Of a DNA stretch of 64,000 nt, positions 32,392 through 50,677 are shown one piece after another (positions within the stretch are counted from its first letter, which is position 1; every line of letters starts with the position of its first letter). Source of the DNA: Victivallis vadensis (GTDB lineage Bacteria > Verrucomicrobiota > Lentisphaeria > Victivallales > Victivallaceae); assembly GCF_003096415.1 (NCBI RefSeq), contig NZ_QEKH01000023.1, positions 1 through 64,000 on the forward strand. The letters run 5' to 3'. The notes under the pieces were generated by a model. That model was not told the origin of the DNA and searched no databases. It was given only the letters and a program-made list of their open reading frames with translations. A program made the position numbers and the translations under genes.

Positions 32392-32612
32392 ACTATCTCC
32401 TATGTACCCCAAAAAGTTGCCACCCTTCCTCCTTCGCCGAGGCTGCGGAGGACAAGTCGGGCTTGTCATCCACAGCGCTTGCGCGACGGATGATACTTTT
32501 CGGGGGCCCCGCTCTACAGTGTTCCGTGCGGCTCCGCCGTACCCACACCTTCGAGAAAGGAATCGTTAATACTTCGATGGTATTGACATACCATCTTCTT
32601 GCGGATCGTAAA
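32392..32612. other. Intergenic hairpin cluster
   Basis: No gene. Contains CCTCC...GGAGG (32429-32452), GACAAG-TCGGG-CTTGTC (32451-32467) and GATGGTAT-TGAC-ATACCATC (32576-32595). The last, a perfect 8-bp stem, is an operator or attenuator candidate ahead of the GH106-like gene; the former two look like a dispersed repeat. Confidence 0.5.
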
Positions 32613-35165
32613 TCAACATAAGATGTGCCTGCCCGGGGCAAGCGGCAGTTCGCGGCCGCCGGGCAGCCGGGCCGAAGCTGGGAGTCCGGGAGGAACTTCC
32701 GCTTCCCAGTACAGTTCTCCCTCCGGCGTCAGGCTCCAGGAACTGGCGATACGCCCGAAGGGGGAGTCGAACACCGCTTCCACCGGCGAGAAACGGCGGT
32801 CCGGAATGATTTCGAAAACCAGGCCGTCATGACGGTAGTGGATTCCGGCCAGCCAGCTTACCAGAAATTCGGAAACCGCTCCGTAGGCATAGTGATTGAA
32901 ACTGTTCATCGAAACGTCGCCGAACCCTTTTTCCCGCGAAAAGCTGTCCCACCGTTCCCAGAACGTCGTCGCCCCCTGCCTGACCTGAAAAAGCCATGAC
33001 GGACACTCCCGTTGCAGCAGCAGGTCGCAGGCGCACCGGGTGCGGCCGAAGCGCGCCAATGTCGGCAGGATCAGGGCGGTGCCGAGAAATCCGGTCGAAA
33101 GTTTCGTCCCGTTGCCGCGAATCCGCTGCTCGAGCAGGTCCAGATTGCCGGTGACGGCGCCGGGGGCGGCCAGCCCGAATGACAGCGCCAGCACCAGCGC
33201 GGTCTGGGTCGCGGGACGAACCAGGCCGGCGCCGTCGGTGAACTTCCGCCGGAACGCCCGTTTCACATTTTCGGCAAGTTTCAGGAAATGATCGCGGTCG
33301 CCGGGAATCTGCAGGATTCCGGCCGCCTCGGCGACGTTTTCCGCACAATGGGCGAAATAGGCGGTCGCCACCAGCTCAGGCGGAGTCTCCTCCGGCGCGA
33401 GCCAGTCGCCGAACTGCCCTTCGCCGCCGATGACGAAATCCTCCGAGCGGGAAAGCTGGTAATGCAAAGCGCGTTTCATCGCCTCATAATTTTCCGCCAG
33501 CACCGCCGTCGAACCGTAGTGGCGGTAAAGAGCGCAGGGGAGCAGGGTCACGGCATCCCCCCACCCCGCCGCGCCGTCGTTGATGTGCAGCACCGCCGGA
33601 GCGATCGAGGGGGCGGCGCCTTCCGGCGTGAAGCCGTCCCGGATATCGCGGAGATATTTCCGGAAAAAAGCCAGACAGTCCATATTCAGCATCGCCGCGG
33701 GAGCGAAAATCTGCGCGTCACCGGTCCAGCCGAGCCGCTCGTCACGCTGCGGGCAGTCGGTCGGAATCTCCAGAAAGTTGCTGCGCTGTCCCCAGAGAGC
33801 ATTGAGCCACAGCCGGTTGACGCCGGAGTCGCCGCATGAAAAGCGGCACCGATCCGGCATCGCGCTGTACATGACCAGCGCGGTAACGTCCAGCTCCTCC
33901 GGCGGAATCCGGTCGAACTGCCAGCCGTCTATCTGCAGATAGCGGAACCCGTGAAAAGTGAACTTCGGCACATATTCCGCGGCCTGTTCCACGGGACCTG
34001 CGCAGATGTAGCTGTCCTGCGAACGGGCTCCACGGTAATTCAGCGTGTAGAGCGAGCCGTCCGGCTCCAGAATCTCGGCGGTCGCAAAGGTGTACCGCCT
34101 GCCGGGAATCCCGCGCGGCCGCACCCGGAACGTGCCGGAGAAGTTCTGGCCGAAATCCCAGATGCAGACGTCTTTTTTCGGACGCAGCAGCCGGACCGGT
34201 TTCAACTCCCGCATATACCGGACCGGCGGGGCGCTTTTCTGAACGAGCCAGGGCGTCTCCGCAACTTCGCCGCTTTCGCGGGCGGCCTCCCACGCGCCGT
34301 CGTCGAAGCCGGGAGTATTCCAGCCGGGCATTTCCAGCCGGGCGTCGTAATCTTCCCCGTCATAGAGATCGGAGCCGAGGATCGGCCCGGTCGCCGTTTT
34401 CCAGCCGGAATCGGTGACCACGGATTCGCGCCGTCCGTCCCGGTAGACCAGCTCCAGATGCGCAAGCAGCTCCGGGTGCGGATGATAGACGTTGCGCATC
34501 CGCAGCACGGTGAGGTTGCCGCAGCACCAGCCTTCCGCCAGGATCACCCCGAGCGCGTGTCTGCCCGGCGGCAGGCGGTCGGAAAGATCATAGGAAAGAA
34601 ACTGAATCTGTTTCCTGAAATCGGTCCAGCCGGGGGCGAGAAGATCGCCGCCGATCCGGGTTCCGTCCAGAGACGGTTCAAAAACTCCGCGCGCCGTGAT
34701 CGAGAGCACCGCCCGGCGCAAACCGTCGCCGACGGTGAACTCGCGCCGGAAGTGCGGGGCCGGAGCCGCCGCCGCACAGCAGTTTCCGGCAAACCGGATC
34801 CAGCGCGCGCCGTGCCAGTCGCCGGGCGACAGCAACGCAACCTCAAACGTGTTTTCCACGGAAAAGGGCGACGGGCTGCCGTCCCGGTCGAAAACGCGGA
34901 TGCAAAAGCTGACCCGGTCGCCGGCTTTCAGCCCGGCGCCCCGCCACGGGACTCCCCGGCAGGCGGTCCCGACGACCCGGCCGGAATCCCAGAGCAACCG
35001 CCCGTCCGCGCCGGATGCCACGATCTGATAACCGCCTTGCCGGGAATCGGGAGAATCCGTTTCGATGCGCCAGGAGAACTCCACCTGCGGCGACGCGACG
35101 AAAAGAAGCTCCCCGGTGCAGTCGCGGTCGTTGACCTGCACCCCGGTTACAGCCAGAATACTCAT
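32613..35165 (-). CDS. GH78 alpha-L-rhamnosidase
   Basis: 850 residues. N-terminal fibronectin-like module (VEFSWRIETDSPDSRQGGYQIVAS), then Bac_rhamnosid_N-like sandwich, and the (alpha/alpha)6 barrel with the classical PTDCPQRDERLGWTGDAQIF and TTFWERWDSF, which carry the catalytic Asp/Glu pair of GH78. Removes terminal alpha-L-rhamnose. No signal peptide. It starts 14 bp after the stop of the large TIM-barrel gene, so co-transcribed. Complete, unlike the shorter GH78 on the island. Confidence 0.9.
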   Translation of the reverse strand: MSILAVTGVQVNDRDCTGELLFVASPQVEFSWRIETDSPDSRQGGYQIVASGADGRLLWDSGRVVGTACRGVPWRGAGLKAGDRVSFCIRVFDRDGSPSPFSVENTFEVALLSPGDWHGARWIRFAGNCCAAAAPAPHFRREFTVGDGLRRAVLSITARGVFEPSLDGTRIGGDLLAPGWTDFRKQIQFLSYDLSDRLPPGRHALGVILAEGWCCGNLTVLRMRNVYHPHPELLAHLELVYRDGRRESVVTDSGWKTATGPILGSDLYDGEDYDARLEMPGWNTPGFDDGAWEAARESGEVAETPWLVQKSAPPVRYMRELKPVRLLRPKKDVCIWDFGQNFSGTFRVRPRGIPGRRYTFATAEILEPDGSLYTLNYRGARSQDSYICAGPVEQAAEYVPKFTFHGFRYLQIDGWQFDRIPPEELDVTALVMYSAMPDRCRFSCGDSGVNRLWLNALWGQRSNFLEIPTDCPQRDERLGWTGDAQIFAPAAMLNMDCLAFFRKYLRDIRDGFTPEGAAPSIAPAVLHINDGAAGWGDAVTLLPCALYRHYGSTAVLAENYEAMKRALHYQLSRSEDFVIGGEGQFGDWLAPEETPPELVATAYFAHCAENVAEAAGILQIPGDRDHFLKLAENVKRAFRRKFTDGAGLVRPATQTALVLALSFGLAAPGAVTGNLDLLEQRIRGNGTKLSTGFLGTALILPTLARFGRTRCACDLLLQRECPSWLFQVRQGATTFWERWDSFSREKGFGDVSMNSFNHYAYGAVSEFLVSWLAGIHYRHDGLVFEIIPDRRFSPVEAVFDSPFGRIASSWSLTPEGELYWEAEVPPGLPASARLPGGRELPLAPGRHILC

Positions 35166-35179
35166 GGGGTCTTTTTACT

Positions 35180-38100
35180 TTACAGAGAATCCCGGTAACG
35201 GATGTCCAGCACAATCCCATCGGCATCAATGAGCTTGATCCGGTCGGTTCCGGCAAGTTCGGGCAGAGGGGCGCCGGGAACCAGTTCCACATTCTTCCGG
35301 CCGTCGGCGTCCGAAGCGACGAGTTTCGCTCCGGCAGGCATTTCCTTTGCCTGAAGTTTTCCGTCCTTCAGGGAGATGAGCCGGGGATATTCCGCGATGG
35401 CGATCGTCTTCTGCGGACGCACCCGGCAGCTGAGCATGCCGTCCTGCGGCGTCAGCTCCCGTCCGGTCGTCAGTTCGACGTAGTGGACGTCTTCGCGGGG
35501 GGCGACCTTCAGCAGCGGCTGATCGACGGTGTATCCGGTCGCGTTGAAAAGCGTCCAGATCCGCTTCCGGTCAGAGGCGAAGCGATTGGCGTAAACCCCT
35601 TTGGCGGCACTGTCGACCAGCGGCTCGATTTCGCCATAATCGAAAGCGTCGTTGTTGTCGAGCAGCAGCGACCGGATATGGTCGGGGTACTCGCCGGAGT
35701 TGTAAACGCCGACCGCATTCCACAGCCACAGATCGTGCGGAGCGGGCTTGTGGTCGCCCGCATCCTCGATGATTTCAAAGAGCTTGCAGTTCCGGAAATA
35801 GAAGCGCAGCAGATTGATCTGAGCCGGGCGGGCGAAGCTCCGGCGGGCGATGCCGTCGTAACTCAGCGCTCCGTCGAGCGTGGAAACCAGCATGTCGTAA
35901 CCCGGAAACTCGGTCAGCAGCAGCACTTCCTTGCCGGAGCGGCCGAGTTTCTCCCGGATGCCGCGCGTGATGTAGGCGACCGCCTGAAGCACCGGATTGC
36001 CCCAGCCTTCATTCGAAAAGAGATGCTCGTGCATGGTGCTGAAGCAGAGATGCCCGCCGCCGCCGAATTCATCGAGACGCACGCCGTCCGCGCCGGTTTC
36101 CTCGACGACCCGCACCACGTCGTCGATCGTGTAATCGGCGAACTTTCCGGCATTAACGCACATGGCGTACTGGTGAAATTTGGCGACGATTCCCGGAGGC
36201 ATGGTCGGATTGGCGACATCGTGCGCCGGAGCGCATTTGTACTGATGGTTTATGACCGCAAATTCGGGAACCATCTTCGCGTTTCTCGCGGAGGCGTCCA
36301 TCAGCACCGCGTCGTAATAGAGCAGCGCCACCTGACCGGCATTCTTGAGATCCTGAAGATGCTGCCGGAAAGCGGGCAGCCCGCCCCACTGCGGATTGTA
36401 GCCGTCGTAATCGCCGAGCGCATACGAAAGCACTTTTTCGCCGGTGGCCGGATCGCGCCAGACCAGCACTTTTTCCACCCACGGGTCTTTGGCGAATCTG
36501 CCGATTTCCTCAAACGGCAGCTTCCAGTAGAGCGATTTGGTGAGCGTCCACCAGCTGCACAGCTCCCAGATGTCGGCGGGGCGTTTGTGGTGTTTCCCCT
36601 GATACGAGGTGTCGTACTTGCCGTCTTTCCAGAGCGGGGAGCCGAGCCCCATGCCGGCGCGGTAGTTCCACCGGCCGGTAAGCTTGCCGGGGAAGGCCTG
36701 CCGGGGCCAGACGCCGGACGCCCAGTCGGCGTAACGCTGCATCGCCGCTTTCCAGTTGCCCGCATGGGTGCCGATCACGGCGTCCGGCAGGGAGACCTTC
36801 ACGCCGGGGGCGTAGGGGCGTTCGGCATAGTCGATCGCCATGCCCGCATACTCTCCCTCGGAAAGGGCGTGCGGCCAGTGGTGCTCCGACTCGAAAAATC
36901 CAGGCGTGGTGCCGGTGCAGAGGTGGTACAGATCGGGATGCTTCACCCCTTTTCCCTTGCGCAGGTTCAAAAACTTGTAGGAAGCCTCCGGGTCGTCGCC
37001 GCGCAGATAGACGCCGCCGCCGGAAGTGCGTGAAAAGAGATCGACCATCTGCCACCAGGCGTCGTTCTGGCCGTAGGCGCTGCGGAAGCGGCAGTTTTCG
37101 CCGCCGATGATGCCGCCGCCGAAGGGAAAGCAATAGAAATCGTCTTCCGGCTTTGCGGAGAGCGTGATCCCGTCCAGATGCGGAAAGGCCAGTGCAAAGT
37201 CGGCGCCGGACTCCCCGCGGTTCGTGACATCGAGCTTGAAACGCAGTTCATCCCGTTCCGCGATGACCGAAACAGTGCATTCCAGTCTGGGTTCTTCCAG
37301 AAAAACGACCGCCTGAAAACCGTTCGACAGCGACTTGACCGACGTCACTTTTCCGTCCCGGGCATCGTAGGTCCTGCCGCCGGCATGGATGCGGAAAATC
37401 CGGGTTTCATCTGCGGCTTTCAGGATGTTTCTATTGACTTCCGCACAGAACAGGCTCTTGAGCGCCAGTGCGGGAGCAAGCTGGAATTCCGCCCGAATCG
37501 CCTCATTTTCAAGGATGGCGGTCGAGTTGTCGATCCGGCAGGAGGGTGCGGCGCCGGTGCGCACGCCGGCGGGAGCGCTCACTTCGGGCGTCATATCGGG
37601 GCGGGCGACAGGCCACTCCAAGGCGGGGGCGAATGACGCCCTCACCGACCGCACCTTGCCGTTGCGGCACTCGACGGCGAACGGAACTCCCGTGTTGAAG
37701 CTCAGCGTATTGCCGCTGCGGGTGAAAGCGACCGCGGCGCCCTTTTCGTCAACTGCGGAAAATTCAGCACCCGGCTCCGTGGCAAACGCAAGGGTCAGCG
37801 GCCGGGATTCATCCCAGTGCCGCCGCAATTCCAGACGGAAAAGCTCCCCTTCGTCCGCCGCATAAGCGAACAGCTGTTCGGAGTCGCCGACGATGCCGTT
37901 CCCGGCCTTCCACTCCGCGCTCCCCTGCTCCCCGACGCTGGAGAGCCTGAGCCGCATCATGAATTCGCCGCACTCCTGATTCTGCTCGCGGTTCCAGTCA
38001 CGGCTCCAACTTTTCCCGCCGTCGCGGCTGACGGAGCTGGCGGTATTCTTCACGCTCCGGTCGATGCTGGGATAGATGAAATCGTCGCCGTCATCGACTT

Positions 38101-39196
38101 TGGCTACCGAAATCGAAATCTCCTCACGATTCAGCAGCAGCGACTTGTCGATCGGAATTTCGACCCAGTCGTTGAGTTTGTTGGAAGTCGCGCTGCGGGC
38201 GGGCAGCCGCGGATCGGCGGTATTGAGCACGATCTCCTTTCCGCCATCGAACCGGATGCGGAATTTTTCAGTCAGGCCGTTCGGTGCCTCTTGGTTGAGC
38301 GCCGTGCTGTAATCGAATACGCCGATGTGCAGCTTCAGATAGACCTTGTCCGCCTTTTCAAGGCTTCCGGCGGGGAGCTTCGTCAGCGGGAACACCTTCG
38401 CGGCGATATTGCCGGGACCGTTGCAGGGCAGGACGTCGAACGGATTCAACCCGCCCCAGCTGTTGTTGTCATTGGCCAGCTCCAGCACGCCGGGCCGGGG
38501 GGAATCCACCCGCCAGGAACCGGTCAACTTCTCCGAATCGACCAGCTTGAGCCGCATCATGAATTCGCCACTGCGTTGATGCGTGGCGCGATTCCAGTCA
38601 CGACTCCAGGTTTTACCTCCGTCGCGGCTGACGAAACTGGCGGTATTGTTCACATTCCGATCGACGCTGGGATAGATGAAATCGTCTCCGTCATCGACCT
38701 TGGCGACCGATATAGCGATCCTGTCGCGGTTGAGCAGCAGCGACTTGTCAATCGGAATCTCGACCCAGTCATTGAGTCTGTTGGAAGTCGCGCTGCGGGC
38801 CGGCAGCCGCGGATCGGAGGTGTTGAGCACGATCTCCTCGCCGCCATCGAACTGGATTCGGAATTTTTCAGTCAGACCATTCGGAGCTTCTTTATTAAGA
38901 TCCTTGCTGTAATCCAACACACCGATATGGAGCCTCAGATAGACCTTGTCCGCTTTCGCGAGGCTCCCGGCAGGCAGCTTATCCAGCGGAAACTCTTTTC
39001 TTGCAATGCAGTTGGAACCATTGCACGGCAGAACATCGAAGCCGTTCAGCCCGCCCCAGCGATTGCTGTCGTTGGCCAGCTCCAGCACGCCGGGCAGGGG
39101 GGAGTCCACCCGCCACTCCGCGCCGATCAGCGGCAGTAATGCGACAGAAGCAATTGCGGAGGCGGTAATTCTTTTCAATTCATTGTACATCATCAT
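35180..39196 (-). CDS. Secreted TIM-barrel glycosidase-like protein with duplicated N-terminal module
   Basis: 1338 residues. Signal peptide to about residue 26 (ASVALLPLIGA). Then two tandem copies of a ~200-residue beta module (WRVDSPLPGVLELANDSNRWGG and WRVDSPRPGVLELANDNNSWGG), followed by a beta-sandwich and a large barrel with GADGVRLDEFGGGG, VLLLTEFPGYD and LLYYDAVLMDAS. The C-terminal part resembles DUF6259-type proteins (tentative); Asp/Glu in RLDEFG and TEFPG are candidate catalytic residues. Likely acts on the outside on the same rhamnose-rich glycan. AGGA precedes three tandem ATGs. Follows the pseudopilin gene by 22 bp. Confidence 0.7.
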   Translation of the reverse strand: MMMYNELKRITASAIASVALLPLIGAEWRVDSPLPGVLELANDSNRWGGLNGFDVLPCNGSNCIARKEFPLDKLPAGSLAKADKVYLRLHIGVLDYSKDLNKEAPNGLTEKFRIQFDGGEEIVLNTSDPRLPARSATSNRLNDWVEIPIDKSLLLNRDRIAISVAKVDDGDDFIYPSVDRNVNNTASFVSRDGGKTWSRDWNRATHQRSGEFMMRLKLVDSEKLTGSWRVDSPRPGVLELANDNNSWGGLNPFDVLPCNGPGNIAAKVFPLTKLPAGSLEKADKVYLKLHIGVFDYSTALNQEAPNGLTEKFRIRFDGGKEIVLNTADPRLPARSATSNKLNDWVEIPIDKSLLLNREEISISVAKVDDGDDFIYPSIDRSVKNTASSVSRDGGKSWSRDWNREQNQECGEFMMRLRLSSVGEQGSAEWKAGNGIVGDSEQLFAYAADEGELFRLELRRHWDESRPLTLAFATEPGAEFSAVDEKGAAVAFTRSGNTLSFNTGVPFAVECRNGKVRSVRASFAPALEWPVARPDMTPEVSAPAGVRTGAAPSCRIDNSTAILENEAIRAEFQLAPALALKSLFCAEVNRNILKAADETRIFRIHAGGRTYDARDGKVTSVKSLSNGFQAVVFLEEPRLECTVSVIAERDELRFKLDVTNRGESGADFALAFPHLDGITLSAKPEDDFYCFPFGGGIIGGENCRFRSAYGQNDAWWQMVDLFSRTSGGGVYLRGDDPEASYKFLNLRKGKGVKHPDLYHLCTGTTPGFFESEHHWPHALSEGEYAGMAIDYAERPYAPGVKVSLPDAVIGTHAGNWKAAMQRYADWASGVWPRQAFPGKLTGRWNYRAGMGLGSPLWKDGKYDTSYQGKHHKRPADIWELCSWWTLTKSLYWKLPFEEIGRFAKDPWVEKVLVWRDPATGEKVLSYALGDYDGYNPQWGGLPAFRQHLQDLKNAGQVALLYYDAVLMDASARNAKMVPEFAVINHQYKCAPAHDVANPTMPPGIVAKFHQYAMCVNAGKFADYTIDDVVRVVEETGADGVRLDEFGGGGHLCFSTMHEHLFSNEGWGNPVLQAVAYITRGIREKLGRSGKEVLLLTEFPGYDMLVSTLDGALSYDGIARRSFARPAQINLLRFYFRNCKLFEIIEDAGDHKPAPHDLWLWNAVGVYNSGEYPDHIRSLLLDNNDAFDYGEIEPLVDSAAKGVYANRFASDRKRIWTLFNATGYTVDQPLLKVAPREDVHYVELTTGRELTPQDGMLSCRVRPQKTIAIAEYPRLISLKDGKLQAKEMPAGAKLVASDADGRKNVELVPGAPLPELAGTDRIKLIDADGIVLDIRYRDSL
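37937..39115. repeat. 600-bp tandem intragenic duplication
   Basis: The codon for the first Trp of each module lies at 39115 and 38515, an exact 600-bp period. The two copies are mostly identical at protein and DNA level, including long shared runs, so the duplication is recent or kept uniform by conversion. Confidence 0.85.
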
Positions 39197-39218: not shown

Positions 39219-40016
39219 TCAGGGAAGCACGACCTTCACGGACGTGCTGTTGAGGATATATGCTCCCGGCCAGACTTTTCCATCGTTTCTCCACTGCTGG
39301 ATGTCACCGGCTGAAATAGCGGAAACGTGGCCGTCGGCCCAGCCGATGTTGGCTTTCTGGTTATGCCGCAAATCAATGCCGGAAGCGCCGGTGGTAAGGG
39401 AGAAAGAGTAAGCCTGCATCATAGTGGAGGTCTCCCAGGTATCGGCATAAATCAGGAACTGGGAAGCGTTTTTGATTTTGGGGAAAGAGATAATCGTCCC
39501 CTCCCCCAGTCCCACGGTACTGGGATGCACAAACGCCTGCGGATTCTCGTTGTAGTTCGGCGTATGCGCCGGCCCCTGCTCGCCATCCGTCGCATTGCCG
39601 GGCACACCGTAGATCGCCCCGAACTTTGTGCTCTCCTCATCTGAATTCGGCTCGGGAATCGCAGCAGCAGGCACAGCCGGACAACTGGCCACCTTGAAAG
39701 AGGGAAGACGGCGCGGATAAAGACCCGCCTGCCCCCAGGCAGTCACATACGTGCCGCGAACCATGCAGTTCAGGAGTGTATGCCAGGCCGCTCCATTTCC
39801 TTTCAGGAACGCAATGCCGTTATAGTCATCGGCATACTGTTGCGTCGCGAGCATGCACTGCTTGAGGTTGTTTGTGCAGCTGATTGCTTTCGCGCTGTCG
39901 CGAGCGCGGTTGAGGGCCGGCAGCAGCATGCCCGCCAGAATCGCAATGATCGCTATTACAACGAGCAGCTCAATAAGGGTGAAATTGTGTTTTTCCGTAC
40001 TTACCGTCGTTTTCAT
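39219..40016 (-). CDS. Pseudopilin-like protein
   Basis: 265 residues from ATG 40016 (AAGGAAC upstream); the upstream open frame overlaps the promoter and is rejected. [18 protein letters not shown] starts at residue 12 with Glu5; the residue before Phe is Asn instead of Gly. C-terminal [16 protein letters not shown] gives the H-x(n)-DGH motif. It has its own promoter with an AraC box (40087-40143) and precedes the large TIM-barrel gene, so it heads that sub-operon. Confidence 0.85.
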
Positions 40017-40086: not shown

Positions 40087-40143
40087 ATTATACTATGAGA
40101 CTGCTTGTTCAACAAGTGCAATTCTCTTATAAATATGGATTTT
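40087..40143 (-). promoter_or_regulatory. Promoter with AraC box A (pseudopilin/GH operon)
   Basis: Minus strand: box AAAATCCATA-TTTA-TAAGAG (40143-40124), 8 bp, TTGTTG (40115-40110), 17-bp spacer, TATAAT (40092-40087). Same geometry as 42356-42412 and 45029-45085. Confidence 0.85.
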
Positions 40144-40195
40144 TCTATCAAACCAACGCTACCGTTCCGGTTTCGGTGCCCCGCCGGAAACACCG

Positions 40196-42256
40196 TCAAT
40201 CCCCGGATGGATCCGTTACCGGCTCCGCAGATTCTTCGCCGGCGTTCCGGCCGTTGACCACCCGCCCGTCGTCCGCGTCATTGCGTTTCCGGGTGCGCAG
40301 CGCCCGGAACAGCTTCACCACATCGGCGGCGCCTCCGATCAGGAACCAGATGGTCGTGCCGATGCCGAGCCCGAATCCCAGCATCACATAGCCCCGCCAC
40401 AGCCGGAGCCAGTGCAGCGGCTGCCAGCCCAGCACGAAGTGTCCGAGCGTACCTGCGACGAAGGCGACTGTCCAGAGCAAAGTCCACAGGAGCGACGCGA
40501 AAAAGAGCAGGCGGTCAAACCGTGTGAATTCATCAGTCAACCCGAAGATCCTCCAGATTTTACCGGCGGACCATACCTCCCGGTGTTCGCCGGAGATGTC
40601 GTACTTGCCGCGATGAAGCATTTTTTCGAGGTTGAAATTTTCCGTGCCGTGCACCTTGCGGTCGATATACGAAACGATGAAATAGCTTGCGAACCCGGTC
40701 AGGGTGATCGCAAACGCGAGGACCTGGCTGTTGACCGGGAAGCGTTCCCGGCGGGCGAGCAGCCACTGTGCAGCGGATTCCGGCGCATGTTCGGCCAGCA
40801 CCGGAGCGAGGGCCGGCCAGCACTGCTGCAGCGCGATGCTGCCGAGCGCCAGTCCCGAACCGAGGATCATCGCCACCCAGGCGCCGAGCGTCGAACCGCT
40901 CCGGCTGTACAGGCCGCCGATCAGCACCGCGCCCGCGCCGCCCGTGAAAATCGCACCGGTGATCTGGAAGAAAAGCAGAATGTATTCGGTCTGCTTGAAG
41001 AGCCAGCTGAAGAAGAAAGCAAAAACTCCGACGAAGACGATCGACAGCCGCAGCAGCAGGATATGCTGTTTTTCGGTGAACGGTTTCTTGCGGAAGGGCA
41101 TGATCACATCCTGCACGAAGATGGACCCCCAGCTGTGCATGTAGGAGTCATCGGTCGAGAGCATCGCCGCCAGCATCAGCGCCGCGAACAATCCGAGCAG
41201 TCCGGGCGGCAGGATGTGGGAGAGAAACAGCGGCACGCGCGCCTGGCTGACCTCCTGCCCGTGAAGCGTGCCGAGCGTTTCCGCAACCGTCTGTGCGCTG
41301 TCGGCATATTGCGGGCTGTTGAAGAAAGTAAAGGCGCAGATCGGGATGAAAAGCAGCAAGGCCCACTGCACCAGCTGCCGCCATACTCCGAGAAAACGCG
41401 CCATTTTCGCTTCATGCGCACTTTTGGCGGCGGCCGCATAACCCGACTGCCCCTGCCAGGTGCCGCTGGTCAGCACCACCAGCACAATGCCCATCAGGAA
41501 GAACCAGATGTTGAAATCCCGGATTCCGGTCGTGTCGAAAGGGTTGAAAAGCGATTGTCCCGGATTCTCCGCCGCATGCACGGTCAGCGTCTCGAAAATC
41601 GTCTCCCAGTCGAACCGCATCACCATGAAGATCATCAGGATCAGGAACACGATATTGCAGAAGGTTCCCTGGATGAAGTCGGTCAGCATGATCGCAAGCT
41701 GTCCGCCGCAGATCGCGAACGTGACGCCGAGCGAAATCACGAAAAGGAGCAGACATACGTAGGTGCTGAACACGAAGGGAATCCCGGCGATCTGGAAGCT
41801 GTCGGGCAGCTTGCAGAAAAACATGAAGAATTTGACCGAAACCGACGGGAAAATCCCGTAGTTCAGCACGCCGGAGAGCCATCCCAGCATTCCGCTGAAC
41901 ACCCGGAAGCGGCGGCTGTAGCGCACCTCGAAAAACTGCGCCATCGTAAAGCAGCGCGTCTCCCTGAAGCGGTAATAGACCCAGCCGCAGATCGACATGA
42001 GCAAAGCGATCGGCCCGGAAAGGAATCCCCACCAGACCGGGGAAAATCCCGCGATATAGTACTGTTCAAACGTCGCGATGATCGAAATCGCGCCGATGCC
42101 GGCGATGCCGTCGGTGACGGCCAGCAGATACCGGCCCGCGCAACGGTTGGCGGCAAGAAAATCCGCCGTGCTTTTGACCTGGCGCTGGCTGATGATCAGT
42201 GTGGCCGTCAGTATGAGCAGCAAAGCTCCGACAATTCCCCAGTCGAGCAGTTGCAT
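40196..42256 (-). CDS. Sodium:solute symporter (SSS family)
   Basis: 686 residues from ATG 42256. Around 13-14 hydrophobic helices with the SSS pattern: [34 protein letters not shown] near the N-terminus, [52 protein letters not shown]. The C-terminal tail is long and charged. It imports a sugar, rhamnose or an oligosaccharide by context, with sodium. First gene of the minus-strand series and divergent from the AraC regulator; its promoter has AraC box B. Confidence 0.88.
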
Positions 42257-42329
42257 GGAGGAGGTTCCTTTCCGATTTGTTTTTCCGCCGTTCCGGTCTT
42301 CCGGCCGGATGACGTGTTTGTGAAACTGT

Positions 42330-42358
42330 TTGCAATTGGTTTGATTACGGGCTATATT
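42330..42358 (+). promoter_or_regulatory. AraC regulator promoter, overlapping the divergent one
   Basis: TTGCAA (42330-42335), 17-bp spacer, TATATT (42353-42358). Its -10 shares three bases with the symporter -10 on the other strand, so the two promoters should exclude each other. Confidence 0.6.
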
Positions 42359-42412
42359 GTACCGTAAAACCAGAAGAAACACAAACACGATACTCTTAAA
42401 AATATGGATTTT
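42356..42412 (-). promoter_or_regulatory. Symporter promoter with AraC box B
   Basis: Minus strand: box AAAATCCATA-TTTT-TAAGAG (42412-42393), 8 bp, TTGTGT (42384-42379), 17-bp spacer, TACAAT (42361-42356). The box overlaps the first codons of the AraC gene. Confidence 0.85.
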
Positions 42413-43351
42413 CCGGGCAAAACCAGAAAACGCGCCTCGTCGATTTACTGCCTGAAACTCAAAGGTTATTCCGGTGGCTATCACGCCACGGCGCTGAAAT
42501 CGGTTCATTTCATGAATGACTGGGAAAAGGAGCTGTCCCACACGCAGTATCACAAGCATAATTTTTATGAGCTTGCGGTCGTTCTGCGCGGCGCCGGGAC
42601 CCATCTGACCGACAGCCAGAAACTGCCGCTGCGCCCCGGCAGCGTTTTCCTGCTCCATCCGGGCGAAAGCCATGCCTACGAGTATTCCGAGCCGCTGACA
42701 TTGATGAATTTCATGTTCGACTCGCAGATTCTGCGCCCCTACCGGAAATCCCTGAGCGGGCTCGCAGGCTACCCGTTGCTCTTCTGCCCGGCGGAGGAAC
42801 GCCGTGAACTCTGCGTGGATTCCGCCACGCTCGCGGAACTCGATATCCTGTTGCACGCGATGGCGATGGAAAGCCGGCAGCGAAGTGCCGGCGCGGAGCT
42901 GCTGCTGATTTCACACCTGCTGAATCTGCTGGTGCTGGTGCTACGCAAATCCTGCAGTTATGTGGAAAGGGAGCGCTTCAACAGCGACATCGGAATTGCG
43001 GTCGCGTTCATGCGCCGCAATTATCAGGAGGAGATCAGCCTGCCCAAACTGGCGCGGCTGGCCAATTTGTCGGAAAGTTCGTTTTTCAGGAAATTCCGCG
43101 AGGAGATGAAAACTTCCCCGATGCAGTGGCTGCTCAATCTGCGGATCCGCAAGGCGATGGAGTTCCTGATCCGCTCCGACATGAACATCGGAGAAATCGC
43201 GGCGGCGACCGGCTTTTCCGACTCGCTCTATTTTTCGCGGCAATTCCGCAGGCAGGTCGGAGTCTCCCCGAAAAATTATCGAAGCCAGGCGCACGGCCCC
43301 CGCCAAATCATTCACGGGCTGCAGACTCTGGAGGAAATCGGCGACATCTAG
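42404..43351 (+). CDS. AraC-family activator of the glycan locus
   Basis: 315 residues. N-terminal cupin sensing domain (HTQYHKHNFYELAVVLRGAGTHL, LRPGSVFLLHPGESHAY) as in RhaS/RhaR-type regulators; C-terminal double helix-turn-helix with ISLPKLARLANLSESSFFRKFREEM and IGEIAAATGFSDSLYFSRQFRRQVGVSPKNYR. ATG 42404 has no ribosome site and lies inside box B, so the start is uncertain, though about 40 nt of leader fits the mapped promoter. It probably activates the three promoters carrying the shared box in response to a sugar released by the locus. Confidence 0.85.
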   Translation: MDFPGKTRKRASSIYCLKLKGYSGGYHATALKSVHFMNDWEKELSHTQYHKHNFYELAVVLRGAGTHLTDSQKLPLRPGSVFLLHPGESHAYEYSEPLTLMNFMFDSQILRPYRKSLSGLAGYPLLFCPAEERRELCVDSATLAELDILLHAMAMESRQRSAGAELLLISHLLNLLVLVLRKSCSYVERERFNSDIGIAVAFMRRNYQEEISLPKLARLANLSESSFFRKFREEMKTSPMQWLLNLRIRKAMEFLIRSDMNIGEIAAATGFSDSLYFSRQFRRQVGVSPKNYRSQAHGPRQIIHGLQTLEEIGDI

Positions 43352-43389
43352 CGCGCCGTTTTCCTGCGAGTTCATCACCCCGAAGCGTC

Positions 43390-44964
43390 TTATTTCTGTC
43401 GCCGCTCCGTCGCGGGCGCCGGAACGGCTGCGACCAGTACGGAAGTATTCGGCGTTTCACCGGAATAATATGCCAGATAATGCTTCCTCCCGATGGCGGT
43501 GGCGTTCACATTGCCTGCGTCAACCGTGGCGGAGTCGCCGAAAACGATGATTTCAGGATCAGGCCACGCCAGAGGCTTGCCCCAGATCTCGTCGATTTTC
43601 GCTACTCTCCGTTTGAGCATCCCCCGGCCCCTCTGGTAATAATAATTGCTGACCAGCCCGGTTTCCCGGTCATAGATCAGACTCGGCGTCGACATCATAA
43701 CATCGGTGATATTCGTCTTGCTGCGTTTCCACGTCTTGCCGTAATCATCGGATTCCATCTGAAACTGCGCCCGCTCCGCACTGTCGGGAGAGTATTCAAT
43801 CCTCCCGACGGCGAAAATTCTGCCGTCTCCCAGATAAACCGCTGACGGCTCCGTCATCCACTCTTTGTGCGGCAGGGCATCTTCAACGGTATATTGCGTC
43901 CAGGTATTGCCGTTGTCCCGACTGACCAGCGTGCCCCATGCGTTCAATTTTTCCGCACCGTAGTTGCCGGTGAACCAGAGCGCCATCAGGCCGACCGTCG
44001 GCACATGAAACACATCGGTGATCTGCATCGGCACCGGATCAAGATCCGGCATGACGACGTATTCGAAATGGACCCCGTCCGCAGTCCGGTAGAGATCGTG
44101 CCGCCGTTCGCCAATCCCCTGCCGCCTGACCCAGAACAGCAATTTTCCGTTTTCATCCAATCCCTTGCCGATGGGAACCTCCCCGTAAACGGTATCCGCC
44201 GTCACGATTGCTTCGGGAGACCAGGTTTTGCCGAAATCGACGGAACTTCTCACATAGACATTCCTTTTCGGCTCACTGGTGACATGTGCGCTGCCGCGCG
44301 AATAGGTGCAGACAAGTTTATTGCCGTCGGCCTGCATCATCGGCCATGAATTGTAACCGGGACGGCTTTCGACCGTGAATGGTATAATGCTTTCCCGGAC
44401 GGGAGTGAACGTTGCCGAAACCAGGCCGGTATCGTGCTTGAAGGTATCGCCGAAATCGCCTGCGCAGCGTTCGATGGAAAAACTGATCGGCAAATCCGGT
44501 TTTACCGGACAACAGGATTCCAGAAGAATGGTTCTGGATTCCATCGGCCTGCCGGTGAGCCGGGTCCTGACCGGCGGGCCGGAAAATTTCGTAACGACCT
44601 CTCCGGATTCCGGATGTTTCTGCACCAGGCGGACTCTGTAGACATCTTCAAAATCCGAAACCGTTTCATCAGCAACGGAGAGTACGGCTATTTCAACCTG
44701 CATGCCCTTGTATCCCGCCGGAATTCCCTCGCACTTTCCCGAAACGGCTGTTTTACCGCGCTTTCCATCAAAAATCCAGACCGGAGTTTTCCGGGAACCG
44801 GCTTCAACACTCTTTTTCGTCATTCCCGCATTTGCCGCCGCTAATTCATCTGCCTGAAAAGTAAACGAAGTACGGGATGGCTCTCCTGCATTGCAACCTA
44901 TAGCCAAGCCGATTCCAATTGCAACTTGCCAGATTTTTTTCTTCCGGATCGTTTTCAACAACAT
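43390..44964 (-). CDS. Sialidase-type six-bladed propeller exo-glycosidase
   Basis: 524 residues from ATG 44964 (GGAGGT 6 bp upstream, better than 44985). Signal sequence ending AIGLAIGC-like (GLAIGCNAG), possibly a lipoprotein. Asp-boxes VDFGKTWS, SRDNGNTWT and DDYGKTWK, with an early Arg in RPGYNSWPMM. N-terminal ~170 residues form a separate beta domain. Could be an exo-sialidase or related rhamnogalacturonan/glycan-binding propeller; the substrate is not determinable. Single gene, convergent with the AraC gene and controlled by box C. Confidence 0.7.
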   Translation of the reverse strand: MLLKTIRKKKIWQVAIGIGLAIGCNAGEPSRTSFTFQADELAAANAGMTKKSVEAGSRKTPVWIFDGKRGKTAVSGKCEGIPAGYKGMQVEIAVLSVADETVSDFEDVYRVRLVQKHPESGEVVTKFSGPPVRTRLTGRPMESRTILLESCCPVKPDLPISFSIERCAGDFGDTFKHDTGLVSATFTPVRESIIPFTVESRPGYNSWPMMQADGNKLVCTYSRGSAHVTSEPKRNVYVRSSVDFGKTWSPEAIVTADTVYGEVPIGKGLDENGKLLFWVRRQGIGERRHDLYRTADGVHFEYVVMPDLDPVPMQITDVFHVPTVGLMALWFTGNYGAEKLNAWGTLVSRDNGNTWTQYTVEDALPHKEWMTEPSAVYLGDGRIFAVGRIEYSPDSAERAQFQMESDDYGKTWKRSKTNITDVMMSTPSLIYDRETGLVSNYYYQRGRGMLKRRVAKIDEIWGKPLAWPDPEIIVFGDSATVDAGNVNATAIGRKHYLAYYSGETPNTSVLVAAVPAPATERRQK

Positions 44965-45028
44965 GCACCTACCTCCATTTTTCATTTTCTGCCGTCAGAT
45001 ACCAGATATATCTCCCAGCTTAGGTCAT

Positions 45029-45085
45029 ATAATAAATCAGAAAGCCCGGCACACCAAGTATGATACTCTTAAATTTATGGATTTT
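45029..45085 (-). promoter_or_regulatory. Sialidase-like gene promoter with AraC box C
   Basis: Minus strand: box AAAATCCATA-AATT-TAAGAG (45085-45066), 8 bp, TTGGTG (45057-45052), 17-bp spacer, TATTAT (45034-45029). Confidence 0.85.
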
Positions 45086-45395
45086 CAAGGCAAAGATAGC
45101 TTTTCCGGCGCAACGGTTCGGTATCAGGGCGGCGTTGTTTGATTTCCCGTGCAGAACAAATATTCTTTCACTCTGCAAGCACAAGTCGAAAGAACGGAGC
45201 AGTAGTGATACTTAAAAATAAAATGACATGGTGTTTTCTCTGTCACGGCAGGAAATGGGACAGTCCGGGACGCCAGCCTCCTCGCCCTCCCCGCCTTTTT
45301 TTGGCAAACTAAATGCAACTGGTCCGACTCAAGGGGGTGCGTTTACTTTTTCAATTCCCAGAATAACTTTTTCCATTCTTTTTTGCACTCCCCTC
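45086..45395. other. Intergenic stretch without supported gene
   Basis: Contains a loose resemblance to the AraC box near 45205 (GATACTTAAAAATAAAATG) with no promoter beside it. Short open frames here lack ribosome sites and domains. Confidence 0.4.
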
Positions 45396-45439: not shown

Positions 45440-45470
45440 AATAACATAACAACTCATGAAGGGCTCTTTC

Positions 45471-46568
45471 ATGCCGACCGTTGCCAAACCCGTCAAATAC
45501 AGACAGATTTACGAGGAGCTGAGCCACCGCATCCGCTGCGGCGCCCTGAAGCCCGGCGAGCAGCTGCCCTCCACGCAGGAACTGGCCGAATATTACAGCA
45601 CGTCCATCCTGACTATCCGGCAGGCGATCACCCACCTGACGCGGGATGGCTTCACCACCGCGATTCAAGGCAAGGGAACGTTTGTTTCGGCACATGAAAA
45701 GGCCAAGGCGGAAGTTCCGGCCATCCAGTTTTTCAGCGGCTCCTTCCACGGCGACCTCAGCCGCGATCCCTTTGTGGGGCCGCTGCTGCTCAACCTCTGT
45801 TCACAGGCGGCCCGTCAGGGGGCCAGCGTCAATGTGACCGTGCTGCCGCCGCATCAGACCCTGAGCGGGTACGTGCGCGAATACGGTGTCACCCCCGCCA
45901 TGAGGAACGGGACGATTCTCAACCTTTCTTCGGAGCTGCTGCAGACCAACCGTGAAGCCGAGCTGGAACTGCTGCGCCGCGAACGGGTTCCGTATGTGGT
46001 GATCCCGCTGGACGACGCCGCGACGGACATTCCGCAGGTACGTTCGGACGGGCGGAACGCCTGGGGGTTCGCCCTCCGCCGGCTGCTCGATTACGGACAC
46101 CGCGACATCATGCTGCTGCCGGGACACAACTCCTATGCCGACGTGCAGGAAGCCTGCCGCAGTCTCGATCTGCCGGTCACCCCGGAGCGGTTCCAACTGA
46201 TCACCCCGTGGGAGGAGGAGTCGGGCCGGGCGGCCGCCTGGCGGCTGCTGCAGGGCGGGCCCGACTTCTCCGCCGTGCTGGTGGCGGGCGACCGCGCGAC
46301 GATGGGAGCGATCCGGGCCATTCAGGAAAGCGGCCGGAGGATTCCCGACGACATCTCGCTCTTTTCCTACGACCGTTATGCCTGGATGGACGCCGCCTCC
46401 CCGATGAAGATCACCGGAATGCAGCAGGATATCGATGCGATGGCGCAGGCGCTGCTCCATTTGCTCGAGGAACAGCGCCTGAGCGGCAGCGAAGTTCCCC
46501 GCAGTATCTCAATCCCGATGCAGTTCGTCGCCGGCGAAAGCTGTATCCTCAAAGCGGAAAACCTTTAG
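45471..46568 (+). CDS. GntR/LacI hybrid transcriptional regulator
   Basis: 365 residues from ATG 45471 (AGGG 7 bp upstream; ATG 45456 has none). GntR winged helix ([51 protein letters not shown]) and a LacI-like sugar-binding domain from about residue 80 ([49 protein letters not shown]). Likely represses itself and the following pseudopilin/glycosidase genes through ATGTTAACAT. Effector unknown. Confidence 0.85.
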
Positions 46569-46602
46569 AATGAACCCAAATACATCGAAAGGAACCATCC
46601 CA

Positions 46603-47367
46603 ATGAAGACTTTCCGTCGTTACTCATTTACATTGATTGAGTTGCTGGTTGTAATAGCCATCATCGCAATTCTCGCCGGAATGCTGTTGCCCGCGCTGAA
46701 TAAGGCGCGCGACACCGCACAGGGAGCCAAATGCCTCAGTTCCATCAAGCAGGTCTGGAATTTCGGGCTGCTCTACTCCAGCGACTACGACGACTGGTTC
46801 GTGCCGTGGGAGGTGCGCAGCACTGAAAAAAATGAAAACCTCCGCTGGCACCGCAATCCGGCTTTCCGTTCCTATGCCGGTCTGGCCAAGCGGGAGTGGG
46901 ACGACGCACTCTACCCGCGTACTTTCGCCTGCCCGCTCGCCACAGTCGGCGAACAGAACGGTTTCATCGATCTTGCCTATGTGTACGGCATGGTTCACTT
47001 CGGCGGCGATCCGTGTTGGCCGGGAAATACCAATTCCGCCTCCACCATGTTCAAGCTGACCAAAGTCAAGCGCCACGCCGAAAAAGTCTGCATGGCGGAT
47101 GTCACCGCCTCCGCGCAGCTCAGCTTGTACAACAATACTCCGGAACCCTTCTGGCAGAAGGGCAATGAAATGGGCCTAGAAAATCCCCCGGGAGAAAATG
47201 TAGCCTACCGCCACGGCAGTCAACAGAACGCCAATGTCGCCTTTTTCGACGGCCATGCTTCTCCCCGGCGACATTATACTCTGAATTGGAAAATGAATTC
47301 CACAACCAATCCGACTTGGACCATCTGGTTTCCCTATGCCCTCACGAACAACGATGTTATCTGGTAA
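46603..47367 (+). CDS. Pseudopilin-like protein
   Basis: 254 residues from ATG 46603 (AAAGGAACC upstream). [18 protein letters not shown] begins at residue 8, preceded by Ser, with Glu5. C-terminal [17 protein letters not shown] carries the H-x(n)-DGH motif. Located between the GntR regulator and a secreted GH-A enzyme, 34 and 19 bp from its neighbours, so one operon. Confidence 0.85.
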
Positions 47368-47386
47368 ATTCAGGAGCAATCATAGT

Positions 47387-50300
47387 ATGAACAAACTGTT
47401 GCAATACACGGCCGGCGCACTTGCCGGAATCGCGTTCACCGCCTCGGCGGAAGTCGTTTTCCAGTGCGGTTTCCGGAATCCGGAGGATCTGAAATCATTC
47501 TCCGCCTGGCAGGTGGAGCCGGAAATCCGTCAGGACGGCGTCGTGCTCTCCGTTCCGCAGCGCGTCAATAACGCCAGTCTCACCCTGAAACTGAATCCGG
47601 CCGATATTGCCGGACAGCGATTGAACTTCAGCGTCGAAGCCCGCGGCACCGGCATCGCCCCGGCCCGCGAACCGTGGAATGGCGGCAAATTCCAGTCCAA
47701 CATCGAAGCTCCCGGCCACCACTCATGGCCCAGTGCCAAGATCAAGCTCGGGAACTTCGACTGGGAAACGCTCGCTTTTTCCGCCGATATTCCCGCCGAT
47801 GTGACCAACGCCCAACTTACACTTGGTTTTCAGGATTCCTATGGGAAGCTTGAATTCCGCAACTTGAAAATCGAGACGGCCGCCACATTGCTCGACCTGC
47901 GCCGCGCCGCCAATATGGGCTTCGCGGACCCGGTCGCCGGAGACGGCAAAGGCGGCTGGTCCGATCAGGGGCCGGACAACGACGCGCGCAATTTCAAATG
48001 GCGCTCCCCGGCCACTTTCGCCAACGTGCCGTTTGCGGTCATCGATCCCGCGAAGAACAATGGCCGCTCCGTCCTTACCATGCGTGCGGCGAATTTTCCC
48101 GCCGGACTGGAAGAAGCGGAAATCCCTGCCCCCGCCGGAACCGTCGGCAACCATCTTTATTTGCTGCACACCCTCTGCTACAACGTCCCCGGCGCCGTCG
48201 GGAGCGTGGAGGTGACCGGCAACTCCGGCAAACGCCAGACTTTCGAGGTTCAATCCGGCCGCGATATCGGCGACTGGTGGAACCCCAAGCCGCTGGCCAA
48301 CGCTTTCCCGGGGGCACTCTGGCCGAACAACTCCGGCGGCCGTGTGGGACTGTACGTGTCGCACTTCGAGCTTGATCCGGAGCTGAAAGGCGTGAAAAGC
48401 CTGCGTTTCCGCAGCGCAAACCGTTCCATGATCTGGATCATCGCGGCGGCGACGGTCTCCGGGCACCGCTACGATCCCCCGTCCACCGAACGCGTCGTGA
48501 CCCGCGCCGACGGCCGCTGGCAGGAGCTTGCCCGTCCCGCCACGCCGGGAATCGTGCCGGGATCGGCGCTCGACCGCTCCTTCCTGTCGCAGGAGAACGC
48601 TCCGCAGGACCGGATCATCGTCAATGCCGACGGCCTGTTCGCCCGCGAAAGCGCCCCGGAGACGCCGGTCCGTTTCCTGACCGCCGCCGAGGCGCACGAC
48701 ACCATCTTCAAGGAGTGCGCCACGAAGGAGAAAACCCGCGAATACGTGCGCCAGTTGAAACTTCACGGCTACAATATGACCCGGCTGCACTACTTCGACG
48801 AGATGCTCATGCGCGATGCCAAGGAGCCGCTGCAGTTCAACGCCGAAGTGCTCGACCGGTTCGACTACTATGTCCACTGCCTGAAACAGGAGGGGATTTA
48901 CCTCAATATGGATGTGATGTCCAGCCCGGTCGGCTACACGCCGGGTTATGCGTGGGCGCCTGACCCGCAGGGCCGCAGCTTCAACTTCGACCTCTACTTC
49001 GATGAAGGAGTGCGCCGCAACTGGGCGGAAGGGGCGAAAAAACTCTTCACCCATGTCAATCCCTACACCGGCAAAAGTCTGGTCGACGATCCGGTGCTGG
49101 CGGTGCTGACCTGTTACAATGAACAGGAGTTCGCGTTCTTCCGCAACTATCGCAACTGGCCGAAGATGGCCCCGGCATGGCGGAAGTTCCTGCAGAAAAA
49201 ATACGGCACGGTCGAACAGCTTCGCGCCTCCTGGGGTGAAAAGCTGCCCGCAGGCGTGACCGGCTGGGATCAGGTGCCGCTGTTCAAGGCCGAGGAGATC
49301 CGCGACTCCGGCAACCGGGGAATCGACATCGCCCGCTTCCTGACCTCCCTCGAACAGAATCTCTACCGCTGGTATGCCGCCGAATTGAAAAAAATCGGCT
49401 ACTCCGGGATTCTCGCCAACTACGACATGGGACAGGAGCAGCGTTACCATCTGGTCCGGCAGGAGATGCCGGCGGTCTTCATGCACTCCTATCACGCCCA
49501 CCCGTCGGCGTTCATTTCGGAAGGCTCCGCCATGCCCCAGACCAGTTCAATCGCCAACGCGGGCGGCGTCATCCGCGGCCTCAACAGCATGCGCCAGTAC
49601 CGCAAGCCTCTGCTGATCACCGAACATGGCCATGTATTCTGGAACAACTACCGCTACGAGCAGGCGTTCGTGACCGGGGCCTACGCCGCGTTCCAGAACG
49701 TCTCCGGGCTGACCTGCCATGCGAAGCCGGTCTCCGTCATTCCGGCCAAGCTCTACCAGATCCGGCCGTTTTCCCTGATGTTCGACCCGGTGATCGGCGC
49801 GTCGGAATTCCTGACCGCTTTCCTGCTGCGGCGCGGCGACGTCCGCCCGGCCGACGGCCGGGTGCGGATCACGCTCGACCCGGAAGAACTCTACCGGGCG
49901 CGGACCTTCAACGACGGCATGAATTCCGCCCACTCCCGGCTGACGCTGCTGACCGGCGTTGCCACCGAGGTGCTCAAGCCGGGCGCGCAGCCCCTGCCCC
50001 CCGAAACGGATGAAGTCGTGCTGAAAACCTCCGGCGGAACCGCGGTCGTCAACAATCTGGCCGGATTCTCGCAGGTCGTCGACCAGCCGGGCAATCCCTT
50101 CGACCTCAACACCTTCGTCGCGGAGCTGAAAAAGCAGAAACTGCTGCCGGAAAATAACCGCAGCAACCCCAACGACGAAGTCTTTGAAAGCTCCACCGGC
50201 GAACTTCTGATGGATTGCCGCCGCAACTATATGAGTGTAGACACGCCCCGGCTGCAGGGAATCTGCGCCGAAGCCGGCTCCAAAGCACAGCTCTCCGATC

Positions 50301-50677
50301 TCGGCGTCGATGAGCTGACCACCCGCGGCAATCTCGCCGTGGTCAGCGTCGACGGCGACCGCCCGCTCCGGCAGGCGAAGCGGCTGGTGGCGGTCTACGC
50401 GACCAATGCCCTCAACTCCGGCATGGAATTCGATGAAAAGGAGCGGGTCACGCTGCGCAAGATCGGCCAGGAGCCGACGCTGGTGGAAACCGGGCGTTTC
50501 CGGCTCCGGCTCCGCCACGACCGCGCGGACCGATTCAAATGTTTCGCGCTGGGCATCGACGGAACCCGCCGCGCCGAACTGCCGGTGACGGCCAAAGACG
50601 GTGAACTGATGCTCGATATCGACACCGCCAGGCTGCCCGGCGGCCCCGCCCTTTACTTTGAACTGGCGGAAAAATAA
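47387..50677 (+). CDS. Secreted GH-A clan glycosidase (GH5/GH42-like)
   Basis: 1096 residues from ATG 47387 (AGGAG upstream). Signal peptide to about residue 23 (GIAFTASA). N-terminal beta-sandwich, then a module (about 47880-48470, LLDLRRAANMGFADP...IIAAATVSG) shared with two other enzymes of the window. TIM barrel from PVRFLTAAEAHDTIF: RLHYFDEML, acid/base Glu in CYNEQEF, nucleophile Glu in LITEHGHVFWN. C-terminal beta domains. Endo- or exo-beta-glycanase by clan; substrate unknown. Encoded with the upstream pseudopilin and GntR regulator. Confidence 0.75.
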   Translation: MNKLLQYTAGALAGIAFTASAEVVFQCGFRNPEDLKSFSAWQVEPEIRQDGVVLSVPQRVNNASLTLKLNPADIAGQRLNFSVEARGTGIAPAREPWNGGKFQSNIEAPGHHSWPSAKIKLGNFDWETLAFSADIPADVTNAQLTLGFQDSYGKLEFRNLKIETAATLLDLRRAANMGFADPVAGDGKGGWSDQGPDNDARNFKWRSPATFANVPFAVIDPAKNNGRSVLTMRAANFPAGLEEAEIPAPAGTVGNHLYLLHTLCYNVPGAVGSVEVTGNSGKRQTFEVQSGRDIGDWWNPKPLANAFPGALWPNNSGGRVGLYVSHFELDPELKGVKSLRFRSANRSMIWIIAAATVSGHRYDPPSTERVVTRADGRWQELARPATPGIVPGSALDRSFLSQENAPQDRIIVNADGLFARESAPETPVRFLTAAEAHDTIFKECATKEKTREYVRQLKLHGYNMTRLHYFDEMLMRDAKEPLQFNAEVLDRFDYYVHCLKQEGIYLNMDVMSSPVGYTPGYAWAPDPQGRSFNFDLYFDEGVRRNWAEGAKKLFTHVNPYTGKSLVDDPVLAVLTCYNEQEFAFFRNYRNWPKMAPAWRKFLQKKYGTVEQLRASWGEKLPAGVTGWDQVPLFKAEEIRDSGNRGIDIARFLTSLEQNLYRWYAAELKKIGYSGILANYDMGQEQRYHLVRQEMPAVFMHSYHAHPSAFISEGSAMPQTSSIANAGGVIRGLNSMRQYRKPLLITEHGHVFWNNYRYEQAFVTGAYAAFQNVSGLTCHAKPVSVIPAKLYQIRPFSLMFDPVIGASEFLTAFLLRRGDVRPADGRVRITLDPEELYRARTFNDGMNSAHSRLTLLTGVATEVLKPGAQPLPPETDEVVLKTSGGTAVVNNLAGFSQVVDQPGNPFDLNTFVAELKKQKLLPENNRSNPNDEVFESSTGELLMDCRRNYMSVDTPRLQGICAEAGSKAQLSDLGVDELTTRGNLAVVSVDGDRPLRQAKRLVAVYATNALNSGMEFDEKERVTLRKIGQEPTLVETGRFRLRLRHDRADRFKCFALGIDGTRRAELPVTAKDGELMLDIDTARLPGGPALYFELAEK

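Follow-up and report, generated by a model that had tools for sequence, protein, structure and literature searches.

Which protein recognizes a box that occurs three times in one sugar-degrading gene cluster of the gut bacterium Victivallis vadensis, and how might it control the genes behind these boxes? The window analyzed here was a stretch of 64,000 nucleotides (contig NZ_QEKH01000023.1, positions 1 to 64,000). The box most probably serves as the operator of an AraC-family protein whose gene lies in the same cluster, at 42404–43351. The fuller reading of the sequence, which is considered likely, is that the three boxes are private tandem operators of this adjacent protein, which would activate all three promoters and control its own gene.

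Three boxes and their promoters

The AAAATCCATAnnTnTAAGAG box, a 20-mer of the form AAAATCCATA-N2-T-N-TAAGAG, was present three times on the minus strand, at 40143–40124 (s1), 42412–42393 (s2), and 45085–45066 (s3). These positions, and the 17 of 20 bases common to all three copies, had been given correctly in a first-pass annotation of the sequence. A search of the window allowing up to 3 mismatches returned exactly these three matches, versus a mean of 0.05 in dinucleotide shuffles; 0 of 100 shuffles contained three. The whole-genome scan proposed in that annotation covered 5.2 megabases on 87 contigs. With 0–2 mismatches it returned these three sites alone, all at promoters of the regulator's own cluster; frequent matches away from promoters, which had been named as a point on which the proposal could fail, were not found. 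At 3 mismatches there were four further matches versus three for a reversed-pattern control, which is chance level. The box is therefore private to one sugar-degrading cluster.

Each box was followed after 8 base pairs (bp) by a TTGnnn −35 hexamer and, after a 17-bp spacer, by a −10 hexamer; this previously noted geometry was exact at all three sites. All three promoters lie on the minus strand. Promoter 1, before a pseudopilin gene, spans 40087–40115 (TTGTTG at 40115–40110, TATAAT at 40092–40087). Promoter 2, before a symporter gene, spans 42356–42384 (TTGTGT at 42384–42379, TACAAT at 42361–42356). Promoter 3, before a sialidase-like gene, spans 45029–45057 (TTGGTG at 45057–45052, TATTAT at 45034–45029). 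Among the 45 columns 3' of the box, 13 were invariant compared with 3.9 in shuffles, and 0 of 5000 shuffles reached 13. The 45 bp 5' of the box held 6 invariant columns versus 2.6 in shuffles (239 of 5000 reached 6); they were mostly a TTTG that the earlier description lacks. A consensus promoter scan missed all three box-linked promoters because their −35 hexamers are poor, as expected for activator-dependent promoters, but found a promoter of the AraC gene.

Two other interpretations of the boxes were rejected. The box is not a promoter itself: a TTGAAA-17-TATCAT match overlaps s3 alone, not s1 or s2. A terminator-like stem (42431–42408) is present at s2 alone, upstream of the predicted start of the symporter transcript.

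Nine genomes of the genus were compared, including the genome analyzed here (G000). A close ortholog of the regulator was found in three of them: G000, G127 (97% identical), and G131 (95%; its copy is truncated where the contig stops). All three sites were kept in G131 and two in G127 (with 1 and 2 mismatches). Promoters 1 and 2 were kept in both congeners, and promoter 3 in G131. The other six genomes had no close regulator ortholog, no box at 1 mismatch, and no match to the extended pattern. The sialidase-like gene was missing at the G127 cluster, its best relative (53% identical) lying on another contig; it was not found in G131, where the contig ends just behind promoter 3. In the G127 and G131 alignments, the boxes and most hexamer bases were constant and the intervening bases had changed. 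That the similarity of the three sites reflects functionless duplicated promoter DNA or chance is hardly credible. A few flanking bases are indeed common to s2 and s3. However, the shuffles exclude chance, the likeness is limited to operator and promoter elements with unrelated genes behind them, and these elements persist in the congeners despite changed surrounding DNA.

Proposed half-sites of the operator and their relatives

The 20-bp box is probably not a unit but the junction of two half-sites spaced by 21 bp, in which case it would consist of the AATCCATA of half-site 1 and the start of half-site 2. Half-site 1 (TTTG-N7-AATCCATA) was placed on the minus strand at 40132–40152 in s1, at 42401–42421 in s2, and at 45074–45094 in s3. 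The putative half-site 2, which is degenerate, would lie at 40111–40131, 42380–42400, and 45053–45073, respectively, overlapping the −35 hexamer at each promoter. With the −10 hexamer at −12 to −7, half-site 1 would span about −72 to −52 and half-site 2 about −51 to −31. Because half-site 2 is weak in Victivallis, the case for a tandem there is made by relatives, namely the 21-bp period in genomes G080, G061, and G062.

The cross-genus searches covered 137 genomes of the order. In G099, which belongs to another genus, a regulator 46% identical to that of the window is followed by ATTG-N7-AATCCATA, 18 bases, TTGCTA, 17 bp, TATATT, and a pseudopilin gene. This site, between the regulator and pseudopilin genes, repeats TTG-N7-AATCCATA, the 8-bp gap, TTG, 17 bp, and TATATT exactly. 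The residues expected for the recognition helices in this family are near-identical in the window and G099 proteins (SESSFFRKF and SESSFYRKF; YFSRQF in both). In G080, of another genus and with a regulator 47% identical, the gap between the regulator and pseudopilin genes holds TTTGAAAAGATAATCTATGTT directly followed by ATTGAAAATATAATCCATTGA; TTGACA overlaps the second copy, and TATAGT follows 17 bp further. At the site of this divergent ortholog, TTTG-N7-AATCYAT is clearly repeated in tandem every 21 bp. The repeat matches at 16 of 19 positions at period 21; among 3000 shuffles, none reached this level at the 21-bp period and 3 did at any period of 17–25.

A geometry-only pattern gave 27 matches in 20 genomes, versus 4 for the reversed control. 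The Victivallis and G099 sites account for eight of these, and no AraC-like neighbor was present within about 1.5 kilobases (kb) of the remaining 19. A tandem search (TTG-N7-AATC-N-AT repeated at 21 bp, at most 1 mismatch, no promoter required) gave 15 matches in 14 genomes, versus 2 for the reversed control. Matches directly adjoined AraC-like genes in G080, G061, and G062. Those in G056, G057, and G058 preceded one conserved gene, and in G057 an AraC-like open reading frame (ORF) was next downstream. Those in G021 and G034 lay outside called ORFs without an AraC-like neighbor, and 7 of the 15 were inside ORFs. Six of the 15 were promoter-placed, with the −10 hexamer at the window offset (G056, G057, G058, G062) or 1 bp beyond it (G080, G061); G061 has an equally good −10 match 3 bases nearer. 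The window offset itself was the same at all three sites and in G099. The repeat copies agreed at 15–16 of 21 positions in G080, G061, and G062 and at 16–18 in G056, G057, and G058, compared with 10–12 in the other nine matches.

Further sites were seen in these searches. At G056:C167, G057:C66, and G058:C200 (L211, L214, L215), the tandem is of the AATCCAT type with TATATT at the same offset, and the gene behind it, of about 890 amino acids, looks orthologous across the three genomes. At G083:C14:312-376 and G083:C42:26909-26973 (L204, L205), near-identical TTGATACGATAATCCAAATAT is followed at 21 bp by a TGATA-type copy, and both precede a promoter-like stretch. No AraC homolog was found in the stretches read around the near-matches of G083 and G081. 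The box itself at 1 mismatch gave 17 matches in 9 of the 137 genomes, 10 of them outside the three Victivallis genomes. Seven of these ten were examined and rejected, all being inside ORFs; the remaining three (G001, G016) were left out.

Several observations weigh against the tandem-operator interpretation. The two half-sites in Victivallis agree at 8–11 of 21 positions alone. G080 and G061 have one extra base between operator and −10. The extended pattern also occurs without an AraC neighbor, once without mismatch (G038). Conservation among the congeners is partly plain orthology. In the upstream regions of the 82 AraC-type genes of the genome, the peak of 21-bp periodicity (0.58–0.63) did not exceed that of 200 control regions (0.54–0.60), whose signal tracks the codons; such a period is not detectable as a general property of AraC regions in this genome.

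The boxes could instead be real operators of the AraC protein, each a single site of 20–23 bp at about −63 to −41, acting as class I through the alpha subunit of RNA polymerase or by repression. The invariant block does stop 8 bp short of the −35, and half-site 2 is hardly recognizable in Victivallis. This alternative is nevertheless unlikely: G080, G061, and G062 have clear tandems with the second copy over the −35 at the same −10 distance within 1 bp, and the upstream TTG is present in all 10 aligned sites. Poor −35 hexamers suggest activation rather than repression. The first-pass annotation had proposed a class-II activator site. Its position agrees with this, as the predicted half-site 2 overlaps the −35 and the −10 distance is fixed, but the 20-bp box that it described is not itself the likely unit. 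The class II layout is thus supported by position, with the −35 overlap depending on the predicted half-site 2.

It is very improbable that a different regulator binds the boxes, be it another AraC protein of the genome or the protein of GntR/LacI type at 45456. Such a possibility is raised by s3, whose intergenic region also borders the GntR-type gene, and by the 82 AraC-type HTH_18 matches in the genome. However, G127 keeps the AraC regulator and two sites without a close copy of the GntR-type protein (45-residue N-terminal query), the best match being 61% over 33 residues on other contigs. With the same query, G099 and G080 gave no GntR match at the threshold used, and their site lies beside the AraC ortholog. 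A half-site without mismatch occurred in 1 of the 82 AraC upstream regions, that of this regulator; no other region had one at fewer than 2 mismatches, and the rest resembled shuffles. The assignment of the boxes to the adjacent AraC protein thus passes the available sequence tests: the sites are private, they are kept with the regulator in congeners, and related sites adjoin AraC-like genes elsewhere.

The regulator and the genes of the cluster

The regulator (42404–43351, plus strand) has 315 amino acids. It carries an N-terminal AraC-like ligand-binding (cupin) domain (AraC_binding, PF02311, E 8.5e-19) and the C-terminal double helix-turn-helix of AraC/XylS proteins (HTH_18, PF12833, E 3.2e-24), both above cut-off. 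Its start at 42404 is consistent with homologs aligning from about residue 8. The middle box and half-site 1 of s2 lie over this start codon, which had not been noticed earlier. The predicted promoter of the AraC gene found by the consensus scan (TTGCAA-17-TATATT, 42330–42358, plus strand) is convergent with promoter 2. Its −10 overlaps that of the symporter promoter (42356–42361), the two promoters being head-on. Both of its hexamers are unchanged in G127 and G131, though the G131 spacer differs. Since the AraC transcript must cross both s2 half-sites and the promoters overlap head-on, target activation would be coupled to negative autoregulation. The AraC gene is a probable negatively controlled target, with a putative roadblock and putative exclusion between the promoters as the means. 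A similar arrangement is seen in G062, where a distantly related AraC gene starts next to its operator.

In the proposed mechanism, a glycan breakdown product would bind the N-terminal cupin-type domain; the two rhamnosidases of the operon prompt the guess that it is a rhamnoside. The ligand-bound dimer would occupy both half-sites, the well-conserved upstream one (TTTG-N7-AATCCAT) and the degenerate downstream one overlapping the poor −35, and would recruit RNA polymerase at the three promoters. The pseudopilin-DUF6259-rhamnosidase-GH1 operon, the symporter gene, and the sialidase-like gene would be switched on. At s2, the bound dimer would cover the regulator's start codon and block the path of its transcript, so that activation of the symporter would repress the regulator gene.

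Pfam agreed with the gene identities assigned earlier. Behind s1 is a tightly spaced minus-strand run of a pseudopilin (N_methyl, DUF1559; 39219–40016), a 1338-residue protein with a DUF6259 domain, earlier described as a TIM barrel (35180–39196), an alpha-L-rhamnosidase of the glycoside hydrolase family 78 (GH78) type with Bac_rhamnosid domains (32613–35165), a GH106-like alpha-L-rhamnosidase with a weak match below the Pfam cut-off (29713–32469), and a GH1 protein (28420–29685). Since a gap of about 143 bp separates the two rhamnosidase genes, the GH106-like and GH1 genes may have a promoter of their own. Behind s2 is an SSF sodium:solute symporter (40196–42256) and behind s3 a BNR_2 sialidase-like protein (43390–44985), both on the minus strand.

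At 45456–50677, the GntR/LacI-type regulator is directly followed by another pseudopilin and a GH42-like protein of 1113 amino acids; this is a second regulator-pilin-hydrolase module next door to the AraC cluster. A weak phage-integrase match below the Pfam cut-off (26754–27491) adjoins the cluster end.

Genome setting and comparison with known systems

At least 150 prepilin-type N_methyl matches are present in the genome (150 scored of 308 first-look candidates), and for 33 of the 82 HTH_18 matches one of those scored is no more than 5 kb away. Repeated boxes within a locus were compared at 30 other AraC loci and the window: 25 of 414 within-locus pairs agreed at 16 or more of 20 positions, versus 100 of 3000 pairs between loci. 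Private repeated boxes as a general feature of AraC loci were rejected, the excess being mild and several of the 25 pairs being hairpins or repeats. A weaker version of this comparison missed the window's own pair. At L063 (G000:C4:7500-21500), CTGTTGACTTnnAGTAACTC occurs twice on the minus strand with 18 of 20 bases identical, upstream of a pseudopilin and a second ORF. TTGACT is a possible −35 there and AGTAACTC lies inside the −35/−10 spacer; the repeat may be a further private operator, in a position suited to repression. Among the open-access papers searched, titles and abstract beginnings pointed to no operator mapped in Victivallis or Lentisphaerae.

For this cluster, a regulator, its operator sequence, three target promoters, and a probable self-control can be named, and a few DNA fragments would suffice to test them. 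Here one of the AraC-pseudopilin pairs of the genome has an operator that can be read. The first gene of the probably regulated rhamnosidase operon encodes a pseudopilin, and this opens to experiment the question of why the genome carries at least 150 genes of this type. A wider idea is advanced tentatively: one tandem operator may both activate a head-on overlapping target promoter and cover the regulator's start codon, and the pseudopilins of Victivallis may be many substrate-specific parts rather than one secretion machine, each part being governed by a local regulator of its own that has a private operator code.

At araBAD of Escherichia coli, araI1 and araI2 are direct half-sites with a 21-bp period, the upstream one at about −70 to −53 and the weaker araI2 over the −35. 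The operator proposed here would be similar, with direct 21-bp half-sites at comparable positions, of which the downstream one would be weaker and overlap the −35. The regulator gene is likewise adjacent and presumably autoregulated, and the protein likewise combines a cupin-type ligand domain with HTH_18. Sequence similarity to solved AraC was found in the C-terminal domain alone. Unlike araBAD, the half-site sequence is different, three promoters of one cluster carry it, and one operator lies over the regulator's start codon. No distal loop site like araO2 was seen, although no search was made for one. The araI1/araI2 shift of E. coli AraC is given in PMC6018408.

RhaS and RhaR of E. coli offer another likeness, with AraC-family control next to the −35 of rhamnose-related genes, the rhamnose ligand here being a guess. 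The half-sites of RhaS, each of 17 bp, stand as inverted repeats on either side of a 16-bp gap, whereas those proposed here are 21-bp direct repeats. MarA, SoxS, and Rob bind boxes of about 20 bp as monomers, in class I and class II positions; a ligand domain is absent from MarA and SoxS. The present box resembles theirs in being asymmetric, of AraC type, and at a fixed distance to the −35; it differs from those of MarA and SoxS in that its probable regulator carries a ligand domain.

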